Below, in pieces: positions 18,831 to 31,512 of a DNA stretch of 64,000 bases (within the stretch, counting starts at the first letter, position 1; the number at the start of each line of letters is the position of its first letter). The stretch lies in contig NZ_QGGV01000011.1 in the NCBI RefSeq assembly GCF_003148765.1, positions 62,001-126,000 of the forward strand, written 5' to 3'. A model generated the notes under the pieces. It was given only the letters and a program-made list of their open reading frames with translations. It ran no database searches and was not told the DNA's origin. The stretch comes from Silicimonas algicola. GTDB lineage: Bacteria; Pseudomonadota; Alphaproteobacteria; Rhodobacterales; Rhodobacteraceae. A program made the translations under genes and the position numbers.

Positions 18831-18977
18831 GCCGTGACATGCACGGCCTTCGCCGCGCGCTCCCATTCACGGATGTTTAACGAAACCTGAGGACGCGACG
18901 GAAATATACCGCCAGCGCCTGATCGCTTCGTGCTAGTGTTTCCTTGCCTCAGATAGTCCGGCGAAGGAGTGGTGGTC

Positions 18978-21900
18978 ATGATCCGCTTCGCGAACGTATT
19001 GTTATGTTTCATTTTTTTAATTATCGCGAGTCCTGCCCAGGCGGCGGACGCAGAGTTGGACTTTTGCGACACTCTGCCTGCAAGTGCCAAAGTCGAAGGC
19101 TTCGAGCGACGGCTTGTCTGCGCCGATGTTGCGGCCTTCGAGCAGGTGATCGTCTACAACCGCTTCGGCTCCTACAATCCCTTCGGAATGTTGTTCGCCC
19201 TGCGCCGCGATCTGATCCCCGCCGACACGGTGCCTGTGCGGATCACTGCGGCGGATTGCGCAGAAGACACCGGAACCGACAGGGCGCTCTCGCCCCTCGA
19301 CGCGGGAGCTGTCCGCTTGCGTGACTGCAAGCGGCCGCGCCCGCTGGTCCTGCGGGCGAACGAAGGCGACCTCCTCGCCCTTCAGGTCACGAACCTTCTG
19401 CGACCGGGGCAGCCGGGACATTCCGAAACCTTCTGCCGCGGGGCGCACCTTCAAGAGGGAAGTCTTGCAAAGAACGTCCGCGACGCCGTCAGCGCCGGGC
19501 CGGACGACCGGCTGGCGCATCACGAAGCGGCCTGCCTCGACGGAACGGCGGGTGCCGATCCGGAGGATGCGGCGCCGGGGTCCGCCGACTGGCCGGTCAC
19601 GCGCGGCATGAGTTTCGCCATAGAGGGGCTGATCGCTGTCGCGCCGGACGGGCTCGATCCGACGAACCTCGCCGTCTGCCGGGGTCTCGCGGCGGTCGCG
19701 CCGGGCGAAGCTGTGACCTGCTACTACGAGATCGATCGGGTTGGGCCCTACTTCTTTTCGAGCAACGCCGCACCCGCGGGCGGGGAAGGCGATGGCGGGT
19801 CGATCACGCACGGTCTGTTCGGCGCGGTCGTCGTGGAAGAGCGCGGCAGCCGGTGGTTCCGCAGCCAGGTCTCGCAGGCGGCGTTCGACGCGGCCTGGAC
19901 GCTGACGGAAAGCGATGCGTCCCTGCGCCGGGCGACGGGCGATCACCGCCGGACGGGCGAGGTGGATTACGACGCCGAGGTGGACGGCATCCCGGTCCTG
20001 TCGATGACCCGGCTCGCTGGCGGCGGAGCGCAGGAGATCGTTCACACCGATCTGAACGCCGTCGTCCACGAGCCGGATGCGAACCGCAGTTTCCGGGAAT
20101 TCTCGGTCTTCTTCCATGACGAGCTGAAGACCTTCTACACGCAGGCTTTCGAGGAACTTGAGCGCTACGGGCAGCTTGCCGGGGTCCGCGACGGCTTTGC
20201 CATCAACTATGGGTCAAGCGGCATGGGGTCGATCCTGCTGGCCAACCGCAAGGGGATCGGACCGGCGACCGAGTGCGTCGAGTGCCTCTACGAGGAGTTC
20301 TTCCTGACGAGTTGGGCGAACGGCGATCCCGCCCTTCTGGAGCGCTATGCGGACGACCCGTCGAACGTGCATCATTCCTATCTGAACGACGAGATCCTCT
20401 TCCGCAACTTCCATGCCGGGCCGAAGGAGACGCACGTCTTTCACCTCCACGCGCACCAGTGGTTCGGCGGGAACGACGGGAACCGGGGCGCCTATCTCGA
20501 CAGCCAGACGGTCGCGCCCCAGCAGGGGTTCACCTACAACATCTATTCCGGCGGCCTTGGGTACTATGACGAGGGGCCGGAGGACGACTGGTTGCAGAAC
20601 GACGGCAGCGGCAACCGCAATCGCACCGTGGGCGATTCCATCTTCCACTGTCACCTCTACCCGCACTTCGCCCAAGGCATGTGGGAGCTCTGGCGGGTGC
20701 ACGACGTCCTCGAGGACGGGACGCGTCTTCTTCCGGACGGCCAGCCCGAGGCAGGCCTTTCGGTCGAGGCGATGGTGGGCGACCCCCGCGTCGGTTCGGT
20801 CGATCCCGAGACGGGGCGCTGGATCGCCGACGCCGAGGGCACGCCGGTGCCTGCACTTGTGCCGCTTCCGACCCGTCCCCTTCCCGTGCTGCCGACCTAT
20901 GCCGCGCCGGACGAGGAGCCCTACCTGACCGCCGAGTCGTCTGCGGCTTTCCCGGGGTATCCGTTCTTCGTTGGCGGCAAGCCGGGTCACCGTCCGCCGC
21001 AGGCACCGCTCGATCTCGCGGTCGCGACCCGCGACGTAGGCGATGTCACGAGCGGCGACATTTTGGACGGCGGCCTGTCGCGCCACGTCGTCGCCGGTGG
21101 CACGCGGCGCTTCGGGGTCGAGGATGCGGGCGATCCGCCACCAGCGAACGGCGCGCAGGCCTCGCAGCTCGTGGCGAAGATGCTGGCTCTGGGCGACATG
21201 TCGGCCGAGTTCGAGACGATCACGCTCGAGCCGCGCGCGCAGGACGGCACGCCGCTGGAGCGGGCCGCGATGGGCTTTCACTACGACGGCACCGTCTGGT
21301 CGACCGGCGAGACGATCGACGTGCGCGCCCCCGACGGGACGCCCGCGGCCTTCGATCCCGCAGGCGGCTACCGGACCGGCGCCGGGCTGTTCACGGTCAA
21401 TGGATCCGCGCCGAAACCCGGCGCGCCCTTCGCCGATCCTTGCGGCGCACCTCCGGGGCTCGCGCGCGGCAGCGAGACCGACGATCCGTTCCTGCAGTGG
21501 CCGGGCGAGCCGTTCCGGACCGATCCAGCCGTGGGCGGCTTCCGCCGGTACGAGGCCTCGGCGGTCCAGCTCGACCTCGTCACGAACCGAGCCGGCTGGC
21601 ACGATCCGCAGGCCCGCATCAACGTGCTGACGTCGACGTCGGACGACTACAAGACGAACAACTCCGGCCTCGCCGATCCCATCTCGCCTTTCGTATCGGC
21701 CCGGGAGGAACCGTTCTTCTTCCGCGCGTTCAGCTCGGAATGCATCGAGTTCCGGCATACGAACGAGCTGCCGAAGGAGCTGGAGCTTGACGATTTCCAG
21801 GTGAAGACGCCGACCGACACAATCGGGCAGCACATCCACCTCGTGAAGTTCGACGTCACCTCGTCCGACGGGTCGGGCAACGGGTTCAACTATGAAGACG

Positions 21901-24900
21901 GCACCTTCGCGCCCGATGAGGTCGCGGCGCGGATCTGCACCTCGGGACAGGACGACCCGAGGTGCGCCTTGCCGGAGTTCGCGGACCACAAGCTGTGGAC
22001 GCTGAAGCGAAGCGATCATCCCGACTGGTTCCAGACGACGGTCCAGCGGTGGTTCGCCGATCCGATCCTGTCCAACCTCGGACCCGAGGATGCCGACGGC
22101 ATGGGCGACAGGACGCTGCGCACGGTGTTCTCGCACGATCACTTCGGCCCGTCCTCGATCCAGCAGCACGGGTTCTACACCGCGCTCGTCATCGAGCCGC
22201 GCGACAACGACGTCTGCCGGCCGGGCTTCGTGTCTGCCGGAGCGCCGTCGGAGTGCCGCTCGTTCGCGGGCGATCTCGGCACGCTCGAGACGGACAACGA
22301 CGTAATGGTGGGCGTGCATCGCGTCCTTCTGGCCGACGACGTGCCCGGCATGGGCGACGACTGGCCGGGGCCCGATCCGATTCATCCGGACGTTCGGGAA
22401 TACGCGATTTCCATCGCCGACTTCGCGCTGCTCTATGATCCGCGCGACTACGACACCGACGCCGAGGCCGTGATCGACGACGCGAGTGCCGCCGGGATCG
22501 CCAAGCTCGCCTGCGAGGCGCGTCACTGGACCGAAGCGGAGGCCGTGGATGGCACTTGCGGCAGCGCTCTTGCGTCCGATGCCGAAGGACGGTTCGACGG
22601 CGCGGACCCGATCCCGGCGTGGAATGCGGCAGGACGTCCGGGCGATTCCGCCACGCACATCGCCGATCTTGCCGACATGATGGACGGGGCCGACGCCGAC
22701 AAGCTTGCGTTCCATCTCGAGGACTACCGCTCCAGGGCCTCGCTTCGGGACGACGGGCGGCTGGCCAGCCCCGTCGCAGCGCCTGCGCGCCCCGAGTCGA
22801 TCTCGGTCGACCACCACGACCCGTACCTCGTCAACTACCGGGGCGAGCCGATCCCGCTTCGGATCGGAACGAAGGAAAGCGGCAGCCACGACGACTGCGC
22901 GCTCGCGACGCTTCCCGTGCAGGGGCATGAGGCGGTCAACGACGACGCCACCTTCGTCCGCGACGTGGACGAGTGCAGCTATGCCGTCCAGCGCGGCGGC
23001 GAGGAAGGCGACATGGCAAACGTCTTCCTGTCCTCGCTTCATGGCGATCCGGCGACGCTGCCGATCGAGACCTATTCGGGTGAGACGACCTACATCCGCA
23101 TGATCCAGGGCGCGCAGGAGGTGCAGCACACCTTCGGCATCGCAGGACACGCCTGGAAGCGGAACCTCGACCAGCCGTTTCCGCAGGCATCCCCCGTCAT
23201 CGGCGCGCCGCCCGCGAGCGAGACGGCGAAACAGGCGTGCAACCGGCTTGAGGCGCTGCACAGGGGATACCCGGAGTTCTACCGCGCCTGGTTCGAGGGG
23301 CGGCTGCCCGACGACGGCATGGCGCCAGAAGCGCCGTCCGACGTGACGCTCTTCTTCGCTTCTCTGGACGAGGCCCTTGCGACGTGCATGAACGCCGAAG
23401 GCTATGTCGCGGCGCAGGAGATCGGGATCTCGGAGCATTTCGAGGTGTCGGGCACGTTCCGCCAGCTTCTCTCGACCAGCGGATTGAGCGGTGAAGGATT
23501 GGAGCTCTTGGGAAGTTGCTCAGTCGCGGAAGAGCGGACGGGCCGTTGCGTGAGACCGCGGGATGGCACCATTGAGCGCCAAAGCACCGACTACCTCTAC
23601 GACTTCGGGACGCAGGACGCTTTGTGGAATGGTGCCTGGGGTCTTCTGCGTGTCTTCAGGAATGGAAACAGCCCCGACCTCACCACCTGCATGCGGAAGG
23701 ACGAGGCTGAGTTCGACGAATGCGCCAAAGAAGTATTTTGGCGCCTTCGCGAGATCCGCGAGATGCGGCACTCCCGAGGCGCGCCGATGCTGTCCTTCGA
23801 GGAGGACGAAGCGCTGTTCCTCGAGTGTCCCGAGGATGCGCCGCGCTTGAACGCCGCAGTGGCCGCCATCGAGGCGCGGAAGGTCTACGGCGCGGACGGC
23901 ATGACCTACGGACGCGACACCTTCGATCCGGACGGCCTGATGATGGTCGCTCTCGATCCCAATCTCGTAACGGAGGGCGCGTCACGCGCGGACATCGAAG
24001 CCGCAATCGCAGCGATGTACGCAGACCGGCCGGCGGAACCCTACGTGCTTCCCGTCCGGGCAGGCGACTGCGTGACGCTGGAGGTCGTGAACCTTCTCGA
24101 GCCAGCGGGTGACGAGGACGACGTTGTCGCCGTGTCAGGCGGTGGATACGAGACGGCGGCCGACGCTGTGACGGGTCTGCGCGACGGGCCGGGCGATGCC
24201 CTCATGCCGCCCATAACGCCGCTCAACACCGATCCGGCGGTCCATGTCGGCGAGGAGACCGCCTCGCCGATCTACGAACTCGACGCCGAAAGCACCGACC
24301 CGCGGAAGCACGACGTGACGCCCTCGGCGCGGCTGGCGATCCGCTTCCCGCTGCCGACGCTGTCGCACACGCAACGCATAGCCCTTCCCTTCGGCTGGAA
24401 CGCGACGGGCGCGCTGCAGCCGGCGGGGGACACGGTGTCCTTCTCGGACGAGACCGACGAGACGGAAAGCGTCACCGGCTTTCTCCCCCGTGTCGCGAAC
24501 GCCGAGCGGATCACCTTCTACGCAGGCAAGCTTTCGGCCGATCCGCGCGCGGTCCTCGGCGACGAGACCGCGAGCGAGATCGTCCACTGGATGCCCTACG
24601 CCTTCGGCCCCGTGCCGATCGAGCCGTTCGGGGACGTGATCGGCCACGGCGGCCACGGGCTGATCGGGTCGGTCCTTGTCCTGCCTCAGGATCACACCTT
24701 CGGCGATGGCTCGGAGTCCTGGCAACTGCCCGGCGCCTCCTACGACGTGATGCCCGCGCCCATTGCAGCCGGGCATGGGCTTGCGACGACGCAGGCGAAG
24801 GGTGCCGAGGGAGGATCTCGTCGCCATCGCTCGTTCGTCCTGTTCTTCCAGGATGGCCTCAACCTTCACGACAAGCGGAGCGGGATCGAATGGCGGTTCA

Positions 24901-25490
24901 GCGACGGGGTGGCCGTGGCGAGCAAGGCCACGCCGGACTGCATGATCTGCGACGACAGCTACGACAGGGGCGACCAGGGGGTCAGCTATCACAGCGCCCC
25001 GTTCCAAGCCCGTCTGCGCGACATCGGCACGCCCGCCGTGCCCGGGATGGCGCTGGAGGCCGACAGCGATCTGAACGCCGTGGCCTTCCCGTCGGACTTC
25101 TGGATGCTTCAGCCGGACGAGGAGGCGGCTGGCGCGGGCGGCTGGGGTCCCTCCAAGGTGGCGACCTCGATGCCCGTCCTGCGGGCCGAGGCGGGGGAGG
25201 AAGTCACGATGAACGTCCTCGAGCCGTCGGGGCGCGCGCGGCAGCACGCCTTCGTCACGATCTCGCAGGACTACGACGACCTGTTCCCCGGCTTCGGTTT
25301 CCCGCATTCGGCGCTGATCGCGCCCGGCAAGGCCATCGCCGCGCCGCTGACGCGGCCGGTGCAGGAGGGGTGCTATCTCTGGCACGACGGCCCGACGCAC
25401 CTGCGGGCGGGCGGCATCTGGGGGCTGCTCGACGTGGTTCCGCAAGGCAGTCTGGCCGATGCGGGCGTGACGTCGTGCAGGCTCGAATGA
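18978..25490 (+). CDS. Giant exported multicopper-oxidase-like protein
   Basis: This 2170-residue protein begins with a clear Sec signal peptide (MIRFANVLLCFIFLIIASPAQA); AAGGAG precedes the ATG at 18978. Copper-type His clusters recur along it: HVFHLHAHQW (about 485), IFHCHLYPHF (about 555), GQHIHLVKFD (about 950), FSHDHFGPSSIQQHGF (about 1052), HTFGIAGHAW (about 1381), VIGHGGHGLIG (about 1890) and CYLWHDGPTHL (about 2132). These are cupredoxin-type ligand patterns, with HCH and HxH motifs as in multicopper oxidases. It is several times longer than laccase/CueO proteins. The described proteins of similar size are the MnxG/McoA Mn(II) oxidases, so metal oxidation is a hypothesis. A SCO chaperone and a cytochrome c follow in the same operon. 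Confidence 0.8.
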   Translation: MIRFANVLLCFIFLIIASPAQAADAELDFCDTLPASAKVEGFERRLVCADVAAFEQVIVYNRFGSYNPFGMLFALRRDLIPADTVPVRITAADCAEDTGTDRALSPLDAGAVRLRDCKRPRPLVLRANEGDLLALQVTNLLRPGQPGHSETFCRGAHLQEGSLAKNVRDAVSAGPDDRLAHHEAACLDGTAGADPEDAAPGSADWPVTRGMSFAIEGLIAVAPDGLDPTNLAVCRGLAAVAPGEAVTCYYEIDRVGPYFFSSNAAPAGGEGDGGSITHGLFGAVVVEERGSRWFRSQVSQAAFDAAWTLTESDASLRRATGDHRRTGEVDYDAEVDGIPVLSMTRLAGGGAQEIVHTDLNAVVHEPDANRSFREFSVFFHDELKTFYTQAFEELERYGQLAGVRDGFAINYGSSGMGSILLANRKGIGPATECVECLYEEFFLTSWANGDPALLERYADDPSNVHHSYLNDEILFRNFHAGPKETHVFHLHAHQWFGGNDGNRGAYLDSQTVAPQQGFTYNIYSGGLGYYDEGPEDDWLQNDGSGNRNRTVGDSIFHCHLYPHFAQGMWELWRVHDVLEDGTRLLPDGQPEAGLSVEAMVGDPRVGSVDPETGRWIADAEGTPVPALVPLPTRPLPVLPTYAAPDEEPYLTAESSAAFPGYPFFVGGKPGHRPPQAPLDLAVATRDVGDVTSGDILDGGLSRHVVAGGTRRFGVEDAGDPPPANGAQASQLVAKMLALGDMSAEFETITLEPRAQDGTPLERAAMGFHYDGTVWSTGETIDVRAPDGTPAAFDPAGGYRTGAGLFTVNGSAPKPGAPFADPCGAPPGLARGSETDDPFLQWPGEPFRTDPAVGGFRRYEASAVQLDLVTNRAGWHDPQARINVLTSTSDDYKTNNSGLADPISPFVSAREEPFFFRAFSSECIEFRHTNELPKELELDDFQVKTPTDTIGQHIHLVKFDVTSSDGSGNGFNYEDGTFAPDEVAARICTSGQDDPRCALPEFADHKLWTLKRSDHPDWFQTTVQRWFADPILSNLGPEDADGMGDRTLRTVFSHDHFGPSSIQQHGFYTALVIEPRDNDVCRPGFVSAGAPSECRSFAGDLGTLETDNDVMVGVHRVLLADDVPGMGDDWPGPDPIHPDVREYAISIADFALLYDPRDYDTDAEAVIDDASAAGIAKLACEARHWTEAEAVDGTCGSALASDAEGRFDGADPIPAWNAAGRPGDSATHIADLADMMDGADADKLAFHLEDYRSRASLRDDGRLASPVAAPARPESISVDHHDPYLVNYRGEPIPLRIGTKESGSHDDCALATLPVQGHEAVNDDATFVRDVDECSYAVQRGGEEGDMANVFLSSLHGDPATLPIETYSGETTYIRMIQGAQEVQHTFGIAGHAWKRNLDQPFPQASPVIGAPPASETAKQACNRLEALHRGYPEFYRAWFEGRLPDDGMAPEAPSDVTLFFASLDEALATCMNAEGYVAAQEIGISEHFEVSGTFRQLLSTSGLSGEGLELLGSCSVAEERTGRCVRPRDGTIERQSTDYLYDFGTQDALWNGAWGLLRVFRNGNSPDLTTCMRKDEAEFDECAKEVFWRLREIREMRHSRGAPMLSFEEDEALFLECPEDAPRLNAAVAAIEARKVYGADGMTYGRDTFDPDGLMMVALDPNLVTEGASRADIEAAIAAMYADRPAEPYVLPVRAGDCVTLEVVNLLEPAGDEDDVVAVSGGGYETAADAVTGLRDGPGDALMPPITPLNTDPAVHVGEETASPIYELDAESTDPRKHDVTPSARLAIRFPLPTLSHTQRIALPFGWNATGALQPAGDTVSFSDETDETESVTGFLPRVANAERITFYAGKLSADPRAVLGDETASEIVHWMPYAFGPVPIEPFGDVIGHGGHGLIGSVLVLPQDHTFGDGSESWQLPGASYDVMPAPIAAGHGLATTQAKGAEGGSRRHRSFVLFFQDGLNLHDKRSGIEWRFSDGVAVASKATPDCMICDDSYDRGDQGVSYHSAPFQARLRDIGTPAVPGMALEADSDLNAVAFPSDFWMLQPDEEAAGAGGWGPSKVATSMPVLRAEAGEEVTMNVLEPSGRARQHAFVTISQDYDDLFPGFGFPHSALIAPGKAIAAPLTRPVQEGCYLWHDGPTHLRAGGIWGLLDVVPQGSLADAGVTSCRLE

Positions 25491-25491
25491 C

Positions 25492-27327
25492 ATGCGCCTT
25501 GCCGGGACGATCTTCCCTGTCATCGCCGTCATCGCGGGACCTGCGTTCGCGGCCGACCTTGCCGCGCCCCTGACCGCGGAGGTCGTGCTCACGGATGTCG
25601 CCGGCGGGACGACCGACACGGTCTTGCCCGGCCAGCCCTTTGGGATCGACGTGACGCTGACGGATGCGGCCACGGGTGGCGCCTTGAAGGGCTTCGTGCT
25701 GGAAGGCTGGATCCGTCCGGTGTCCGAGACCGATGCGCCCTGCGTCGAGGCGGCTCGCGCCTTCCGTGCCACGCGCCGCATCCCGACGGGCGGGATCGAT
25801 CTGAACGGGATCGTGCTGGCCGGGTTCAACGAAGACGGGAGTTTCGGTCTTGCCGACCCCCGTCTCGACCTCGCCACTGCCAACATGCTGGCGGCGGGGA
25901 CGCTCAGCGCGACGCCGGACCTTGTCGTCGCCGACCGCGCCACCCAGAGGCTGATCGCCCATCTCCCCGGACAAGACGGGCTCGTCTCGGTCGGCCTGAC
26001 CGGAGATGTCTCCGAAATCGCCTTGCCGGCGGTCGGCGGCACTCTCGCGGCGCTGCACGTCTCGGACGACGGGGTGATCTGGCTGGGAGGCACAGGCCCG
26101 GAAGGGCGAGGGGTGATGTTCCACGCTCCCGGCGGAGACGAAGGAACTCCGGTCCGCTTTGGGACAAGGGTCGGTGGAATGGCAGACGCGGGCGAAGGCG
26201 AAGTCTTCGCCTGGGCCGAGAATGGGTTCGCATTTCTCGATGCGTCCTCCGGGCGAGTGACCGCTTCAGGGATCCATGCGTCCGCATCGAATGCCGCCGG
26301 GATTGCCTTGCCGGACGGTCGTGGCGGTGTCGTGCGCCTTGTCGCCTCGCTGGCGCCGGGCGGAGCATCGGCGCACATCGTCTTCGCGGACACTCCGACG
26401 GACGGTGTCTCGGTAGAGCTTGCCGCGCCCGCTGACCGGATCGGCATTTCGCCCGAAACGGGAATGATCCTGGTCTGGAACGCGGACGGCGCGGTGTCCT
26501 TCATCGATCCCGCCACAACGGCGCTTGCGGGTGCCGTCGCCCTGAACCAGGGCATCGGCGACGCCGTTTTCGCAGGCGAGGCCGCGTTCCTTGCAACGGC
26601 GGACCAGTCGGGCGTGACCGTCATCGACCTCGGGACCGTGGCCGTGGGGCAGGCGCCGACGCTGCGTGAAGTCCGGCTTGCCCCGCGCGACGCCGAGGTG
26701 ACGACCCGACCCGGAGCGCTTCTCGTGCCGCTTGCCCCGTCGCCGCAGGTGCTGGCGGTTCACGCGGCAAGCTACACCGGCTTCGTCATCGACGAGACGA
26801 GCAGCATGGGAGACGCGCCGCCGATGACCGCCGTCCGCCTGCGGGGCGGTCGCCCCTCCGCCGTCGCCGTCCTCGACCGGAGCTTTCGCGAAACCGCACC
26901 GGGCCGGTTCAATACCCGCGCCGTCGTGAACGAGGGTGGACCGCACGAACTGGTCCTGACGACAGGCATCGGCGGGATGTCACGATGCTTTCGCTTCGAC
27001 GCGCAAGGCTCTGCAAAATCAGCATTTTCCATTCCTGTCCTGACCGTCGATCTTGGTGTGCCGTCGCTGTCCGCACGGGCCGGGCAGGTCCTGAACGTCC
27101 GCCTTCTGGACGAGAACGGAGCCTCCGTGGCGCTCACGGACCCTGTCCTCGAGATGACGCACATTCAATTCGGATGGCGGGCGACGCTTTCGGCGGACGG
27201 CCTCGACGCAGGCGGCGCAAGGTTCATCGTCGCCCCGCCGGTTCCGGGTCACTACGCGGTGACGCTCGCGGACGCGACGCTCAAGGGCGTCGAGATCAGG
27301 GCGACAACGATAGAGGCGAAGCAATGA
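25492..27327 (+). CDS. Exported protein, probable beta-propeller, unknown function
   Basis: This 611-residue protein has a signal peptide (MRLAGTIFPVIAVIAGPAFAA). The N-terminal region (about 25-110) looks like an immunoglobulin-like or FixG-type beta domain. The middle holds repeating short segments such as DLVVADRATQRLIAHLPG and GMILVWNADGAVSFIDPATTAL that resemble propeller blades of the YncE/NHL type. The C-terminus is again beta-rich with two Ig-like stretches. It starts one base after the giant oxidase and overlaps the SCO gene (ATGA), so it is clearly part of the same operon. It may be a partner or scaffold of the oxidase. I do not recognise a named family. Confidence 0.7.
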   Translation: MRLAGTIFPVIAVIAGPAFAADLAAPLTAEVVLTDVAGGTTDTVLPGQPFGIDVTLTDAATGGALKGFVLEGWIRPVSETDAPCVEAARAFRATRRIPTGGIDLNGIVLAGFNEDGSFGLADPRLDLATANMLAAGTLSATPDLVVADRATQRLIAHLPGQDGLVSVGLTGDVSEIALPAVGGTLAALHVSDDGVIWLGGTGPEGRGVMFHAPGGDEGTPVRFGTRVGGMADAGEGEVFAWAENGFAFLDASSGRVTASGIHASASNAAGIALPDGRGGVVRLVASLAPGGASAHIVFADTPTDGVSVELAAPADRIGISPETGMILVWNADGAVSFIDPATTALAGAVALNQGIGDAVFAGEAAFLATADQSGVTVIDLGTVAVGQAPTLREVRLAPRDAEVTTRPGALLVPLAPSPQVLAVHAASYTGFVIDETSSMGDAPPMTAVRLRGGRPSAVAVLDRSFRETAPGRFNTRAVVNEGGPHELVLTTGIGGMSRCFRFDAQGSAKSAFSIPVLTVDLGVPSLSARAGQVLNVRLLDENGASVALTDPVLEMTHIQFGWRATLSADGLDAGGARFIVAPPVPGHYAVTLADATLKGVEIRATTIEAKQ

Positions 27328-27917
27328 GACAGCATCTTCTGATCGCCCTGGCGCTTTTCGCAGCCAGCGTCCCGGCGCAGGCACACGATCCGAACGCCGG
27401 TCACAAGATGCCGGTTGCCGGAAAATCCGAGACGGCGCCCGGCCTCGAGACCATCCACATCGCCGATGCGCGCGTCATCGACCAGAACGGCGCCGAGCGG
27501 CGCTTCGGCGAGGTCGTCGGGGACGGCCCGGTGGTGGTCACCTTCATCTACACGAGCTGCACGACAATCTGCCCGGTGGCGAACGGCATATTCCAGATCG
27601 TGCAGGAAGACCTCGACGCGGCGGGAGACGACCGCACCCGGCTCGTCTCGGTCAGCATCGACCCGGTCCGGGACTCGCCTGCGGCCCTGCACCGGACGGC
27701 CGATGCCTTCGAGGCGAAGGATCGCTGGACCTTCGTCACGGGAAGCGTGCCCGAGATCGCCGACGTTCTGCGGTCGTTCGGTCTATCCCTCGGCTCGGTC
27801 GAGGACCACGATCCCATGTTTCTTGTGGGATCCGGAAACGGCCGCTTCGTCCGCATCGCAGGCCTGCCGGCGCCTGAGACCCTTCTCGGCACGCTTGCGC
27901 GCGTTGAGGGCCGCTGA
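27324..27917 (+). CDS. SCO1/SenC-family copper chaperone
   Basis: This 197-residue exported thioredoxin-fold protein has a signal peptide (to about residue 20) and the SCO copper site CTTICP (C79 and C83) plus the distal His in DHDPMF (H162). SCO proteins deliver copper to, or reduce, the copper site of cuproenzymes, classically Cu-A of cytochrome oxidase. Here no oxidase gene is nearby, so the natural client is the giant copper protein encoded three genes upstream in the same operon. A His/Asp/Met patch (HDPNAGHKM) follows the signal peptide and may also bind copper. Confidence 0.9.
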   Translation: MRQHLLIALALFAASVPAQAHDPNAGHKMPVAGKSETAPGLETIHIADARVIDQNGAERRFGEVVGDGPVVVTFIYTSCTTICPVANGIFQIVQEDLDAAGDDRTRLVSVSIDPVRDSPAALHRTADAFEAKDRWTFVTGSVPEIADVLRSFGLSLGSVEDHDPMFLVGSGNGRFVRIAGLPAPETLLGTLARVEGR

Positions 27918-27918
27918 G

Positions 27919-28647
27919 ATGCGGCTCGTGCTTCTGACAGCCCTGCTGTGCGCATCCCCGGCGGTCGCCGCTGACGATCATGCCGCAGCGCTGTTCTACG
28001 GCACGGGCGATGTGGGGGCGACGGTCCGGCTGGCGGGCGGAGAGGCTGAACTGTCGGCACGCCTGTTTCCCTGCGCCAACTGTCACGGTGCGGACGGCCA
28101 AGGCAGCGTCGAAGGCGCGCTGGTCGTGCCCCCGATCGCCGGACGCGGGCTTTCGGTCGACGACCTTGTGCGCGCGGCCGAGCATGGGATGGGGCCGGAC
28201 GGAGAGGCATTGGACCCGGCGATGCCGCGCTATGCCTTCGCCGACGGCGGGATCGCCGAACTTGTTCGTTTTCTCGACGCCTTGCCGCACCGTGAGCGGG
28301 CAGGGGTCTCGGGCTCGACGGTGCGGATTGCCGTCGTGGGTGACCACGCGGAGACCTTCCTTCGCGGACTGAGTGCCTCGGTCGACGGGGAACGCGCCTG
28401 GGGGCGCAGCATCGTGGTCGACACGGGTGCGGGGGACGACGCATTCCTTGGCGCAGGCCTAGATGGCGGCGAGCAGCCCGGGCTTCCGATCCTGTCGCTT
28501 TCAGACGAGGCGCGGCTGTCGCCCGAAGCAGCGGGCCATGCGACCGGGCAGGCGCTCATCGCCGCCCTGCGCGCGACGGGCCGCAACCTGACGCGGAGCC
28601 GTGCGATCGCGGCGTTCCGGGAGATGGGCGGGAGGACGGTCAATTGA
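27919..28647 (+). CDS. Exported cytochrome c with C-terminal extension
   Basis: This 242-residue protein has a signal peptide and one class-I-like heme site, PCANCHGADG (C52-H56), with a short cytochrome domain to about residue 120 and a Met in DPAMPRYAF as possible distal ligand. The remaining about 120 residues (VRIAVVGDHAETF to GRNLTRSRAIAAFREMGG) resemble the last part of a Leu/Ile-type periplasmic binding protein, which suggests a fusion with a truncated ligand-binding domain. It starts two bases after SCO and overlaps the protease gene. It may take electrons from the giant oxidase. Confidence 0.8.
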   Translation: MRLVLLTALLCASPAVAADDHAAALFYGTGDVGATVRLAGGEAELSARLFPCANCHGADGQGSVEGALVVPPIAGRGLSVDDLVRAAEHGMGPDGEALDPAMPRYAFADGGIAELVRFLDALPHRERAGVSGSTVRIAVVGDHAETFLRGLSASVDGERAWGRSIVVDTGAGDDAFLGAGLDGGEQPGLPILSLSDEARLSPEAAGHATGQALIAALRATGRNLTRSRAIAAFREMGGRTVN

Positions 28648-30998
28648 GCCTCCGCATCGCCCTCGCGTGGTTGGCTACCGCCGTCACCTGCTACGCTCAG
28701 GACTTGCCGACGCGCGACCTGCCGCAGTTCAACCGCGACCGCCTGTTCGAGGGGATCGAACCCGTCACGCCGGCGATCCGCGACGTCCTGCGTCCCGGAG
28801 TTCCCAGCATCGGTCTCGACAGGATCCGCCGCCTCGATGCCGAGAACCTTCTCCTGCGCGACCGCGCCGCGCTTCTTGCGGCACCGGATGCGCTTCGCCA
28901 GATCGAGGCGTTCCGACGCGCACCTACACGACAGTCGGACGAAGGCGTCGTCTCGGTGATCGAGTTCGGGCGGCGGTTCGATGCGGACGAAAAGGCGCGC
29001 CTCGCCGAGGCGGGGGTGACGCTCGAGGGCTTCGTCGGCGGCAGCACCTACGTCGTGCGGTTCGCTGGTGACGCGACGCTGCCGGTCCTGGCGTCGGGGC
29101 AGATCCGCGCTGGGGCGACGCTTCGGATCGAAGACAAGATCGGGCGCTCGCTCGTTCTCGCCCCCGCGCTCGCGCCTGACGCCGTGGGGAGACGGCGTGT
29201 CCTCCTCAGTGCCGCGACCGGAGGCCGCGACGCGGTGCAGCGAAGCCTCGAGGCTCTTGGCGCTACGGCCATCGAAGAGCCGACGCGGGGGACGTTCATC
29301 TTCGAGGTGCCGGACAACCGCCTCATTGACGTGGCGGGTCTGGCGGACGTTCTCAGCATCGACGCGGGGCCGCCGCCCTTCCTGCCGCTGACGAGCGTCG
29401 CGCGGCAGGTGGCGAACGTCGACGGGGCGCAGGGCTTCACCCTTGAAAGCGACCTGGCGGTTCTGGAGGGTGTCGCGGGCCGCTCTGTCCGCGTCGGGAT
29501 CTTCGATACGCCTATCAATGCGGAGAACGGGGACTTCATGGCGCTTGAAGGCGATCAGGAGCGGTTCTTCCGCCGGGTAGGCCTTGCAACCAGTTGCGGC
29601 GGCGAGCCGGATGGCGTCCTTGCGCAGCGCCACGGGACGCTCGTGTCGGGCATCCTCCTCGGCAGCGGCCGGAATTCGGTCGTGAACTCGACGCTCGAGG
29701 GGGTCGACGGCACGCCCTTCGGGATGCGGGGCATCGCACCCGAGGCGGACATCGGCGTCTTCGAATACACGGACGAGGGCGAAGGCAGCCGGCGCCTCGC
29801 GCTGCTGACGAGCGCGCTGGTCGACTGCGGGGTCGCCGTCAGCAACCACTCCTATATCGAGACCCTGTACGGCTACGAAGGAGCGTCGAGGCTGATCGAC
29901 GAGATGATCGCCGGGCGGGCGCGCGTGTCGGACGGCGAGACGGAAGGTGAGGTCATCCCGCCGCGTCCGCAGGTCTGGGCTGCCGGAAACAACGGGCTTC
30001 GCCCGAAGGACGGGCGCCGCGCCGCCTATGTCTCGGTCTTCACGCAGGCGAAGAACTCGATCAGCGTCGGCGCCTACGATACCGCGCACCAGACCGTCTG
30101 GCCGCATTCAAGCCTCGGCCCGACCTTCGACGGCCGGATCAAGCCCGACATCGTGGCTCCAGGCTGCCACGACTTCGAAGTCTCGACGTCCCAGGGCGGC
30201 ATCCTCGGGCCGTCGCCGAATGCCGAGGGCTATGTGCGCGACTGCGGCTCGTCGATGGCCGCACCCGTCGTCACCGGGGCAATCGCGCTGATGCGGGAGG
30301 CCGCGGGCGACGTCGAGCCGCTTCCTTCGACCTACAAGGCGGCTCTCGTGGCGACGGCTCAGGACCTGGTGGCAGAGAGAGGGCGGCCCGATCTCGCAGC
30401 CATGCTCGACCCGGAGGATCTCGATGATCTGAAGAACATCGACATCCGCGAACCGACCTTCTACGGGCCCGGTCCCGATTTCGCCTCGGGCTTCGGACTG
30501 ATCGACGTCTCCACCGCGGTCCGGGTGATGACGGACCTTGCGGGCATCGAGGAGGGGGCCTTCGATGTCGAAGGCGCCACGTCGGACATGTGCTTCGACG
30601 TATCCGAGGGCGCGGAGCGCTTGAAGGTCGCGCTGGCGTGGGACGATGCGCCCGCCAACGCGCCGGCGGACCTGGTGCTGGCGCTTCTGGTGAACGACCT
30701 CGACCTAACTCTCATCGCACCGGACGGCGCAACGCACCTGCCGTGGAAGCTGACGCCTCCTCCGCTGACGGGGTCAGACCAGCTTGCGGAACTGGCGCGG
30801 AACGAATTCGACGTCGAGGACATTCACATGGCCGAGCGTGGCCGGGACGTCCTCAACAATGTCGAGCTTGCCGAGGTGGAGGCACCAACGCCCGGGCTGT
30901 GGCGCGCCCGAGTGACGGCCTCGACCCTCGGCGACGGGCCGCAGACCTTCAGCGTCGCTGGCGACATCGTGAAGCGACCATGCCCGGATCCCGAGTAG
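28644..30998 (+). CDS. Exported subtilisin-like serine protease (S8)
   Basis: This 784-residue protein starts at a TTG overlapping the previous stop and carries a short signal peptide (SLRIALAWLATAVTCYAQ). A propeptide-like region spans about 90-255. The catalytic triad is D288 (VGIFDTP), H330 (RHGTLVSG) and S537 (GSSMAAP), with oxyanion N449 in AAGNNG. A C-terminal beta domain (about 640-780) follows. It is periplasmic or secreted and may process other products of the operon, for example the giant oxidase. The gene immediately downstream encodes a small protein resembling its propeptide region. Confidence 0.88.
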   Translation: MSLRIALAWLATAVTCYAQDLPTRDLPQFNRDRLFEGIEPVTPAIRDVLRPGVPSIGLDRIRRLDAENLLLRDRAALLAAPDALRQIEAFRRAPTRQSDEGVVSVIEFGRRFDADEKARLAEAGVTLEGFVGGSTYVVRFAGDATLPVLASGQIRAGATLRIEDKIGRSLVLAPALAPDAVGRRRVLLSAATGGRDAVQRSLEALGATAIEEPTRGTFIFEVPDNRLIDVAGLADVLSIDAGPPPFLPLTSVARQVANVDGAQGFTLESDLAVLEGVAGRSVRVGIFDTPINAENGDFMALEGDQERFFRRVGLATSCGGEPDGVLAQRHGTLVSGILLGSGRNSVVNSTLEGVDGTPFGMRGIAPEADIGVFEYTDEGEGSRRLALLTSALVDCGVAVSNHSYIETLYGYEGASRLIDEMIAGRARVSDGETEGEVIPPRPQVWAAGNNGLRPKDGRRAAYVSVFTQAKNSISVGAYDTAHQTVWPHSSLGPTFDGRIKPDIVAPGCHDFEVSTSQGGILGPSPNAEGYVRDCGSSMAAPVVTGAIALMREAAGDVEPLPSTYKAALVATAQDLVAERGRPDLAAMLDPEDLDDLKNIDIREPTFYGPGPDFASGFGLIDVSTAVRVMTDLAGIEEGAFDVEGATSDMCFDVSEGAERLKVALAWDDAPANAPADLVLALLVNDLDLTLIAPDGATHLPWKLTPPPLTGSDQLAELARNEFDVEDIHMAERGRDVLNNVELAEVEAPTPGLWRARVTASTLGDGPQTFSVAGDIVKRPCPDPE

Positions 30999-31008
30999 GA
31001 TGGCGATC

Positions 31009-31512
31009 ATGTCGAGACTTGCAGCACTCCTGATCGTGGTCGCCTTCCCCGCCGTTGGGCAGGACCGGGCGTCCGTTCTCGTCACCGTCGATGCACCGCT
31101 CGACAAAGGCGCCGTCGCGCGCCTGTCGGAATCGGAGATCCTCATCGGCCAGTACGCCGGCGACGGAACCTACCTTGGGTCGATCCCGCTCGACGCCGAT
31201 GCCTCTGCCCTGATGGAAGCGTCGGGCGTGCAGGCGATCGAACCGGTGTCGGTCGACTTCAAGACCCAGCTTCTGCCCGAGGGGGCCAAGTCGGGTCCGG
31301 CGACGATCACCGTCATGATAACGCCTGCCGTCGGCCAGGACGAGGCAAGCTTCGAGGCCGCACTTCGCGAGATGTCGCTCGACATCGTCGATGCGAACGA
31401 GGAGGACGGCTGGGTCGTTTCGGCCCCGGCGGAGGATATCGCGCGCCTCGCCGAGCGGCCCTTCGTGGAAAGTCTTCAACTGGTTGACGAAGCCCCGCTT
31501 CTCAAACGCTGA
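31009..31512 (+). CDS. Small exported protein resembling the protease propeptide
   Basis: The 167-residue protein has a signal peptide (MSRLAALLIVVAFPAVGQ). I prefer the ATG at 31009, which has AGGA 8 bases before it; an in-frame ATG at 31000 is also possible. The mature part reads like two tandem inhibitor-I9-type modules. TYLGSIPLDADASALMEASG and the final FEAALREMSLDIVDANEEDG line up by eye with the region at about 110-255 of the adjacent subtilase, for example VQRSLEALGATAIEEPTRG. It could be a separate inhibitor or folding helper of that protease. This is inference; no search was run. Confidence 0.6.
   Translation: MSRLAALLIVVAFPAVGQDRASVLVTVDAPLDKGAVARLSESEILIGQYAGDGTYLGSIPLDADASALMEASGVQAIEPVSVDFKTQLLPEGAKSGPATITVMITPAVGQDEASFEAALREMSLDIVDANEEDGWVVSAPAEDIARLAERPFVESLQLVDEAPLLKR

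Follow-up and report, generated by a model that had tools for sequence, protein, structure and literature searches.

Background

The mnxG operon of Pseudomonas putida GB-1 comprises mnxG itself and genes for a propeller protein, two SCO proteins, a binding protein with a cytochrome c domain and SurA (PMC11409713), and a GB-1 mutant that produces MnxG alone oxidizes both Mn(II) and Mn(III) (PMC5906577); these and the other published systems are described here from excerpts of the papers cited. In Bacillus, MnxG requires MnxE and MnxF for activity and works as the complex MnxE3F3G (PMC5622069). The MofA operon of Leptothrix discophora joins a large Mn-oxidase candidate to mofC, a gene for a c-type cytochrome (PMC8218464). 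In this study, we analyzed a run of six genes at positions 18978-31512 of a 64,000-nucleotide stretch of DNA from Silicimonas algicola (contig NZ_QGGV01000011.1, positions 62,001 to 126,000; hereafter the window), which encodes a giant multicopper oxidase that by its sequence is of the MnxG kind, a propeller-like protein, an SCO protein, a short cytochrome c, a subtilase and a small orphan protein. We read the locus as an alphaproteobacterial mnxG operon that most likely oxidizes Mn(II) and has gained the subtilase, which would act on the oxidase or on one of its partners, and the small protein, which would fold or restrain the subtilase, and we give this reading a probability of roughly 0.65.

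As in the GB-1 operon, the giant oxidase gene comes first and is followed by those for the propeller, SCO and cytochrome c proteins (PMC11409713, PMC8218464). The window differs in having one SCO gene where GB-1 has two, a much shorter cytochrome and, instead of a SurA-type last gene, the subtilase and a propeptide-like protein, and the sequence of its oxidase scores far below the equivalog cut-off for Pseudomonas MnxG. By fold, the first half of the window oxidase is matched best by the MnxG of Bacillus sp. PL-12 (PDB entry 9bxa), whose copper motifs align with those of the window protein but which has 1227 residues against 2170. The likeness to the MofA operon is taken from its published description, and mofB, which encodes a Mip-type protein, sets the Leptothrix operon apart from the window. 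Ceruloplasmin and the two-domain laccases, both of which appeared among the matches, resemble the window oxidase in having cupredoxin domains with type-1 and trinuclear copper sites and differ from it in size and partner genes. The oxidase thus belongs to a known kind; what is new here is a subtilase with a propeptide-like partner built into an mnxG operon.

Results and Discussion

The giant oxidase and its copper ligands

Entry 9bxa was the sole PDB sequence match of the oxidase at E-values up to 1 (E 6.8e-59) and also its best profile match (E 9.2e-113). The NCBIfam model for the Pseudomonas MnxG equivalog (NF041487) matched with E 6.3e-144 and 481 bits, and because the curated cut-off of this model is 3100 bits, the oxidase was considered a distant member of the MnxG family and not an equivalog. 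Relatives were collected by a scan of genome contigs, in which 80 of 135 were kept as loci (designated by L numbers, as are the plasmid loci below), and 68 homologues were aligned with the window protein to give 69 rows; L005, whose matches duplicate those of L002, was left out, as were 11 loci in which no called frame of more than 1400 residues carried a hit. The 12 expected copper ligands (H486, H489, H491, H557, C558, H559, H563, M568, H952, H954, H1053 and H1055, with M1 at 18978) were invariant in all 69 rows, and their motifs follow one another along the chain in the order C-D-A-B. With the motif labels A-D and the type-1 and trinuclear roles that we take over from the multicopper oxidase family, the oxidase, as judged from its residues, carries one type-1 and one trinuclear copper site with the full ligand set. 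H563 pairs with alanine in 9bxa; absence of this type-1 histidine from Bacillus MnxG was considered and rejected, since the entry is titled 'Mnx H340A' and is a mutant.

An AlphaFold2 model of residues 26-1110, built with 40 sequences, reached a mean predicted local distance difference test score (pLDDT) of 69.3 and a predicted template modelling score (pTM) of 0.79. Its best fold match was 9bxa (Foldseek E 2.8e-32; Z 21.5, 4.1 A, 582 residues), followed by factor V/VIII-type proteins and two-domain laccases, with ceruloplasmin among the Foldseek matches.

Profile comparison divided the oxidase into six cupredoxin domains arranged as three related pairs (1-2, 3-4 and 5-6). Aligned with hhalign, pair 1-2 matched pair 5-6 at E 3.9e-24 (2.2e-19 in another comparison) and pair 3-4 matched pair 5-6 at E 9.9e-28; the odd-numbered domains matched one another (D1-D5 E 9.6e-22, D3-D5 4.8e-16, D1-D3 2.3e-11), as did the even-numbered ones (D4-D6 1.7e-16, D2-D6 3.4e-9, D2-D4 1.2e-8), and neighbours within a pair did not (D1-D2 E 0.48, D3-D4 E 0.31), all of these values being single comparisons of shallow profiles. 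Copper ligand sets are confined to domains 2 and 3. Elsewhere, one His of the mapped ligands is kept in domain 4, none in domain 5 and two in domain 6; no His of domain 1 exceeds 60 % conservation among the rows, and the D1-D3 alignment is too short to map the ligand positions. The initial annotation, made from the sequence without database searches, had counted at least seven cupredoxin units, a number that was rejected in favour of six domains with a single ligand set; its view of an MnxG-kind multicopper oxidase with complete type-1 and trinuclear sites stands, on the strength of the 9bxa matches, the copper motifs aligned with that entry and the 69 concordant rows.

In a midpoint-rooted FastTree tree, the window oxidase was placed in an alphaproteobacterial clade of 20 members (support 1.0), adjoining Jiella (0.96); the taxonomy of the clade, and that of the core loci described below, was assigned from record titles. 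The oxidase matches once in its own genome (4.34 Mb, rated 100 % complete, with the window on contig 11). Seven match rows of PF07731, a family of other multicopper oxidases, were found elsewhere in the same genome, and PF03098 (heme-peroxidase Mn oxidase) had no match there, a result that is uninformative in that the control genomes had none either. In the plasmid records opened, alphaproteobacterial relatives of mnxG were annotated as hypothetical proteins.

Conserved partner genes

Matches to mnxG, SCO and cytochrome c in the same order and direction within 14 kb were found at 45 of 79 loci, with a match to the propeller-like protein between them in 35 of the 45; several of the remaining 34 loci are short contigs. 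These core loci span Alphaproteobacteria, Nitrospira, Nitrosomonas and Acidobacteriota. The mnxG family is patchily distributed, being found at E 1e-30 in 7 of 295 genomes of the same bacterial family (its own genome counted) and in 30 of 72,556 plasmids. Two scaffolds of a single Jiella avicenniae assembly (L002 and L005) agree in match positions and identities across the operon, which may therefore be duplicated there. On plasmid pLVM1 of Methylobacterium sp. DM1 (L128), which is typed as conjugative, the mnxG relative has transposase genes on either side.

The SCO protein scored 62.5 bits in Pfam (cut-off 22.8) and contains the CxxxC motif as CTTIC. For the propeller-like protein, the homologue at L023 matched YtkA above its cut-off and propeller models below theirs. 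The window cytochrome, at 242 residues, is shorter than the 42 homologues with a called frame (392-915 residues) and also than three cytochromes on Paracoccus plasmids (321-323 residues), and an alignment with nine homologues indicated that it (27919-28647) is without most of their C-terminal domain, the last edge of which is kept in frame. In L040, the partner cytochrome c is fused to a Peripla_BP_6 binding domain.

The subtilase and the small protein

The subtilase matched Pfam Peptidase_S8 with 122.3 bits (cut-off 21.8) over residues 279-577, with D288, H330, N449 and S537 in the expected motifs behind an N-terminal extension of about 260 residues; D288, H330 and S537 are presumably the Asp/His/Ser triad. 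It is predicted to be a protease of the exported type. One relative was found at E 1e-15 among 197 other genomes of the family, relatives on plasmids share 27 % identity with it, and its distant relatives L101 and L102 27-29 %. The best plasmid relative (L102, 3312-6863, on a plasmid of Bradyrhizobium septentrionale) lies 27 bases behind a gene of the tyrosinase family, another copper oxidase.

In a single-sequence AlphaFold2 model of the small protein, the first half was poor and the second half formed strand-helix-strand-strand-helix-strand with a pLDDT of 73-85. The top 22 rows of the VIA-align search were subtilase propeptide regions or the inhibitor POIA1, at Z 7.7-9.2, and the first unrelated fold followed at Z 7.5, a small margin; Pfam gave no sequence match to Inhibitor_I9 or to any other family at E up to 1. 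Aligned colinearly with the N-terminal extension of the subtilase, the small protein scored 57, compared with 36.4 +- 6.3 for shuffled sequences, a score reached by 6 of 500 shuffles; seven comparisons were made, and the two that stood out were both of the extension with the small protein (6/500 and 0/500). Internal repeats in the small protein or the extension were not supported, as half-against-half scores were reached by 286/500 and 496/500 shuffles. By this model the second half of the small protein has a subtilisin-propeptide fold, and the pair at the operon's tail looks like a subtilase with a free copy of a propeptide-like domain. Such stand-alone proteins are known: the SUB1 inhibitor of the malaria parasite is a subtilisin propeptide-like inhibitor (PMC6993865). 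The small protein would share with it, and with POIA1 (1v5i, VIA-align row 18, Z 7.9), the free-standing propeptide fold, and differs from both in that its gene lies directly behind that of a subtilase, in its extra N-terminal half and in that inhibition is only predicted.

Proteases beside mnxG in relatives

A link of proteases to the giant MnxG-type oxidases looks real, because unrelated classes (trypsin, caspase and subtilase) adjoin mnxG in relatives. Eight plasmid loci were opened, chosen from the 15 listed of the 30 plasmid records, and in five of them (L123, L124, L125, L126 and L127, on plasmids of Roseivivax, Paracoccus and Shinella) a protease adjoins mnxG within 1.5 kb, with divergent trypsin-type domains directly before it. 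The gene in L127 is annotated as a C1 peptidase, that in L123 has a weak C1 match, and L125 carries an annotated subtilase as well; in L128, L129 and L130 a protease was neither annotated nor found, one small upstream gene of L130 being unscanned. Among the genome loci, trypsins lie before mnxG in four (L010, L016, L021, L036) and behind the cytochrome in two (L064, L066), and subtilases lie next to mnxG or to one of its partner genes in L021, L032 and L037, as well as in L035 by a model built in this analysis only. Divergent caspase-domain genes encoding about 870-917 residues precede mnxG in L004 (7087-9714), L006 (7073-9802), L009 (7096-9846) and L028 (7184-9802). The caspase genes of L004 and L006 are each followed within a few bases by another gene, of about 600 codons; the two products are 65 % identical to each other and have no Pfam match. 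The divergent gene before mnxG in L012 (8388-9692) encodes an AAA-type ATPase and not a protease.

Within the clade, upstream sequence of 1.6 kb or more is available for 18 of the 19 tree relatives, and a protease gene lies within 1.5 kb of mnxG in 8 of these 18 loci (with genes between in L016). Proteases made up 9 of the 120 nearest genes and 1 of 241 genes beyond 4 kb (Fisher p 3e-4), a count that is biased in that the models were seeded with proteases found beside mnxG, and in which mechanical gene calling lost the trypsin of L021 and the caspase of L009. An independent Pfam scan found trypsin in 3/62 and caspase in 3/62 of the nearest upstream genes and trypsin in 2/58 of the nearest downstream ones; trypsin, caspase and subtilase were all outside the 25 most frequent families among 120 genes at distances above 4 kb, a listing that as many as 3 members could have escaped. 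The trypsins of L021 and L125 are 90 % identical and their subtilases 88 %, which indicates shared descent or transfer as a cassette. Among the open-licence literature matches listed, as far as their excerpts go, mnxG and 'subtilase' never occurred together, and 'protease' in three mnxG papers that use the word referred to an inhibitor used in purification, a cited reference and added protease K, a further one (PMC3393687) having a single passing count.

Gene layout

The features of the locus are listed in Table 1. The open reading frames, read directly, are joined by 1-base gaps or 4-base overlaps only, and signal-peptide-like N-termini were recognized by eye on all six encoded proteins, suggesting their export. 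In Pfam, SCO1-SenC and Peptidase_S8 were above their cut-offs and cytochrome c (CBB3) was weak and below, and the oxidase, the propeller-like protein and the small protein matched no family at E up to 1. The initial annotation is therefore borne out in part: its six head-to-tail genes, their exported look, the SCO gene and the subtilase were recovered, and its count of cupredoxins was not, whereas its 'propeptide-like' last gene agrees with AlphaFold2, Foldseek and VIA-align for the second half of the protein, the first half being poorly modelled.

Table 1 Features of the mnxG-like operon in the window
Feature	Positions	Strand	Details
mnxG-like oxidase gene	18978..25490	+	ATG start; 2170 residues; in-frame GTG at 18969 as alternative start
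Cupredoxin domains 1-2	19053..20777	+	Residues 26-600; domain 2 with motifs C and D; AlphaFold2 model, best match 9bxa
Copper motif C, HVFHLHAH	20433..20456	+	H486 type 1; H489, H491 trinuclear; invariant 69/69
Copper motif D, HCHLYPHFAQGM	20646..20681	+	C558, H563, M568 type 1; H557, H559 trinuclear; invariant 69/69
Cupredoxin domains 3-4	21495..23822	+	Residues 840-1615; domain 3 with motifs A and B
Copper motif A, HIH	21831..21839	+	H952, H954 trinuclear; invariant 69/69
Copper motif B, HDH	22134..22142	+	H1053, H1055 trinuclear; invariant 69/69
Cupredoxin domains 5-6	23775..25487	+	Residues 1600-2170; copy without complete copper site
Propeller-like protein gene	25492..27327	+	611 residues; signal-like start; 1-base gap from oxidase gene; basis tblastn to loci and homologue L023
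SCO1/SenC-family gene	27324..27917	+	197 residues; CTTIC motif; 4-base overlap with propeller-like gene; Pfam PF02630 5.1e-17
Short c-type cytochrome gene	27919..28647	+	242 residues; CANCH motif; 1-base gap from SCO gene; Pfam PF13442 1.5e-5, below cut-off
Subtilase (S8) gene	28644..30998	+	784 residues; TTG start; signal-like start; 4-base overlap with cytochrome gene; Pfam PF00082 3.1e-35
Orphan small-protein gene	31000..31512	+	170 residues; signal-like start; 1-base gap from subtilase gene
Putative subtilisin-propeptide (I9-like) fold region of small protein	about 31297-31497	+	AlphaFold2, Foldseek, VIA-align

Proposed function and alternative readings

The oxidase would be exported, and the SCO protein would help to supply its copper. 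A metal ion, probably Mn(II), would donate electrons singly to the type-1 copper (H486, C558, H563 and M568), from which they would cross the H557-C558-H559 bridge to the trinuclear cluster built from the motifs of domains 2 and 3, at which O2 would be reduced to water; this path is proposed because of the ligand set and the established chemistry of multicopper oxidases, which pass electrons to O2. The other four domains would be structural copies without a copper site. Since the oxidase would itself reduce O2, the cytochrome would not be needed as the electron acceptor that the initial annotation had made of it, a role that is doubtful also in view of the longer gene in relatives and the fusion to a binding domain in L040. 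The description of the operon as self-contained was likewise too strong, as nothing shows which of its parts suffice; the first interpretation is otherwise mostly upheld, with the domain count and the acceptor role corrected. Outside the cytoplasm, the subtilase would most likely cleave or release the oxidase or one of its partners, and so may mature, release or regulate the oxidase, and the small protein, which resembles the subtilase's own N-terminal extension, would fold or restrain the subtilase, perhaps as its inhibitor.

Several observations weigh against this reading of the locus. The oxidase does not reach the curated cut-off of NF041487, reports of Mn oxidation were not found for its clade, and there are no MnxE- or MnxF-type genes among the operon's six (the rest of the genome was not searched for them), so that its partners must differ from those of Bacillus Mnx. 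The pair of subtilase and small protein was found at this position in 0 of 79 other genome loci and 0 of 8 plasmid loci, and not for want of room, because the sequence runs on for 4 kb or more past the cytochrome match in 41 of the 45 core loci; behind the cytochrome, tblastn at E up to 1 yielded no more than a distant S8 match in one genome locus (L079) and a chance-level one in one plasmid locus (L128). The small protein matched nothing in 294 other genomes of the family or in the plasmid collection, and with no relatives and no second locus the pair could be a recent hitchhiker. The model of the small protein is weak overall (mean pLDDT 62.8, pTM 0.41), its first Foldseek match, a subtilisin propeptide, has a best E of only 6e-3, and VIA-align itself cautions that models without clear relatives typically reach a best Z of 7 to 8. 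Most of the proteases beside mnxG elsewhere are divergent, and ten of the divergent ones (L004, L006, L028, L010, L016, L036, L123, L124, L126 and L127) have no signal peptide by eye; such proteases would not meet an exported oxidase in the same way, and exported and cytosolic types are therefore kept apart.

Three other readings were weighed against these data. The absence of the tail pair from every other locus examined, the orphan status of the small protein and the positions of the subtilase's distant relatives elsewhere (L101 and, behind a tyrosinase gene, L102) would all be explained if a separate secreted protease-inhibitor pair had been inserted by chance behind an ordinary mnxG operon, with no functional tie. 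We regard this as somewhat unlikely, given the tight junctions of the pair (a 4-base overlap and a 1-base gap) and the recurrence of unrelated protease classes beside mnxG, with 9/120 against 1/241 from models seeded with such hits. It is also conceivable, though rather unlikely, that the natural substrate of this MnxG-like oxidase is Fe(II), Cu(I) or an organic reductant and not Mn(II). The distance from the Pseudomonas equivalog would fit such a substrate, as would the fold match to ceruloplasmin, a known ferroxidase, and the ligand-binding domain fused to the cytochrome of L040, which hints at an organic ligand; among solved structures, however, MnxG is far closer to the oxidase than any other, and the oxidase is accompanied by the partner genes of the Mn-oxidizing GB-1 operon, which favours Mn(II) as the likely substrate. 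A degenerate or purely structural oxidase with unused copper sites might be suspected from the four of six domains without a complete ligand set and from the moderately confident model of the first half, but the single active centre has its full set of 12 ligands, none of which varies, and we consider this highly improbable. An Mn(II)-oxidizing operon that has gained a functionally linked subtilase and small protein is thus the reading we prefer.

Conclusions

As a tentative generalization, which we think somewhat improbable as it stands, giant MnxG-type oxidases may be regularly coupled to a dedicated protease of interchangeable class (trypsin, caspase, subtilase and perhaps papain-like), which here would have become part of the operon in the form of an exported subtilase with a propeptide-like restraint of its own, proteolysis being a general and previously undescribed control step. 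If so, the protease would activate or release the oxidase outside the cell or, in the case of the cytosolic types, respond to damage or conflict. A genuine protease link would mean a layer of control that the excerpts of the Pseudomonas and Bacillus Mnx papers do not mention, and this link most deserves to be tested. How bacteria form Mn oxides, and to what end, has long been asked, and the locus provides a compact and testable gene set for this question.

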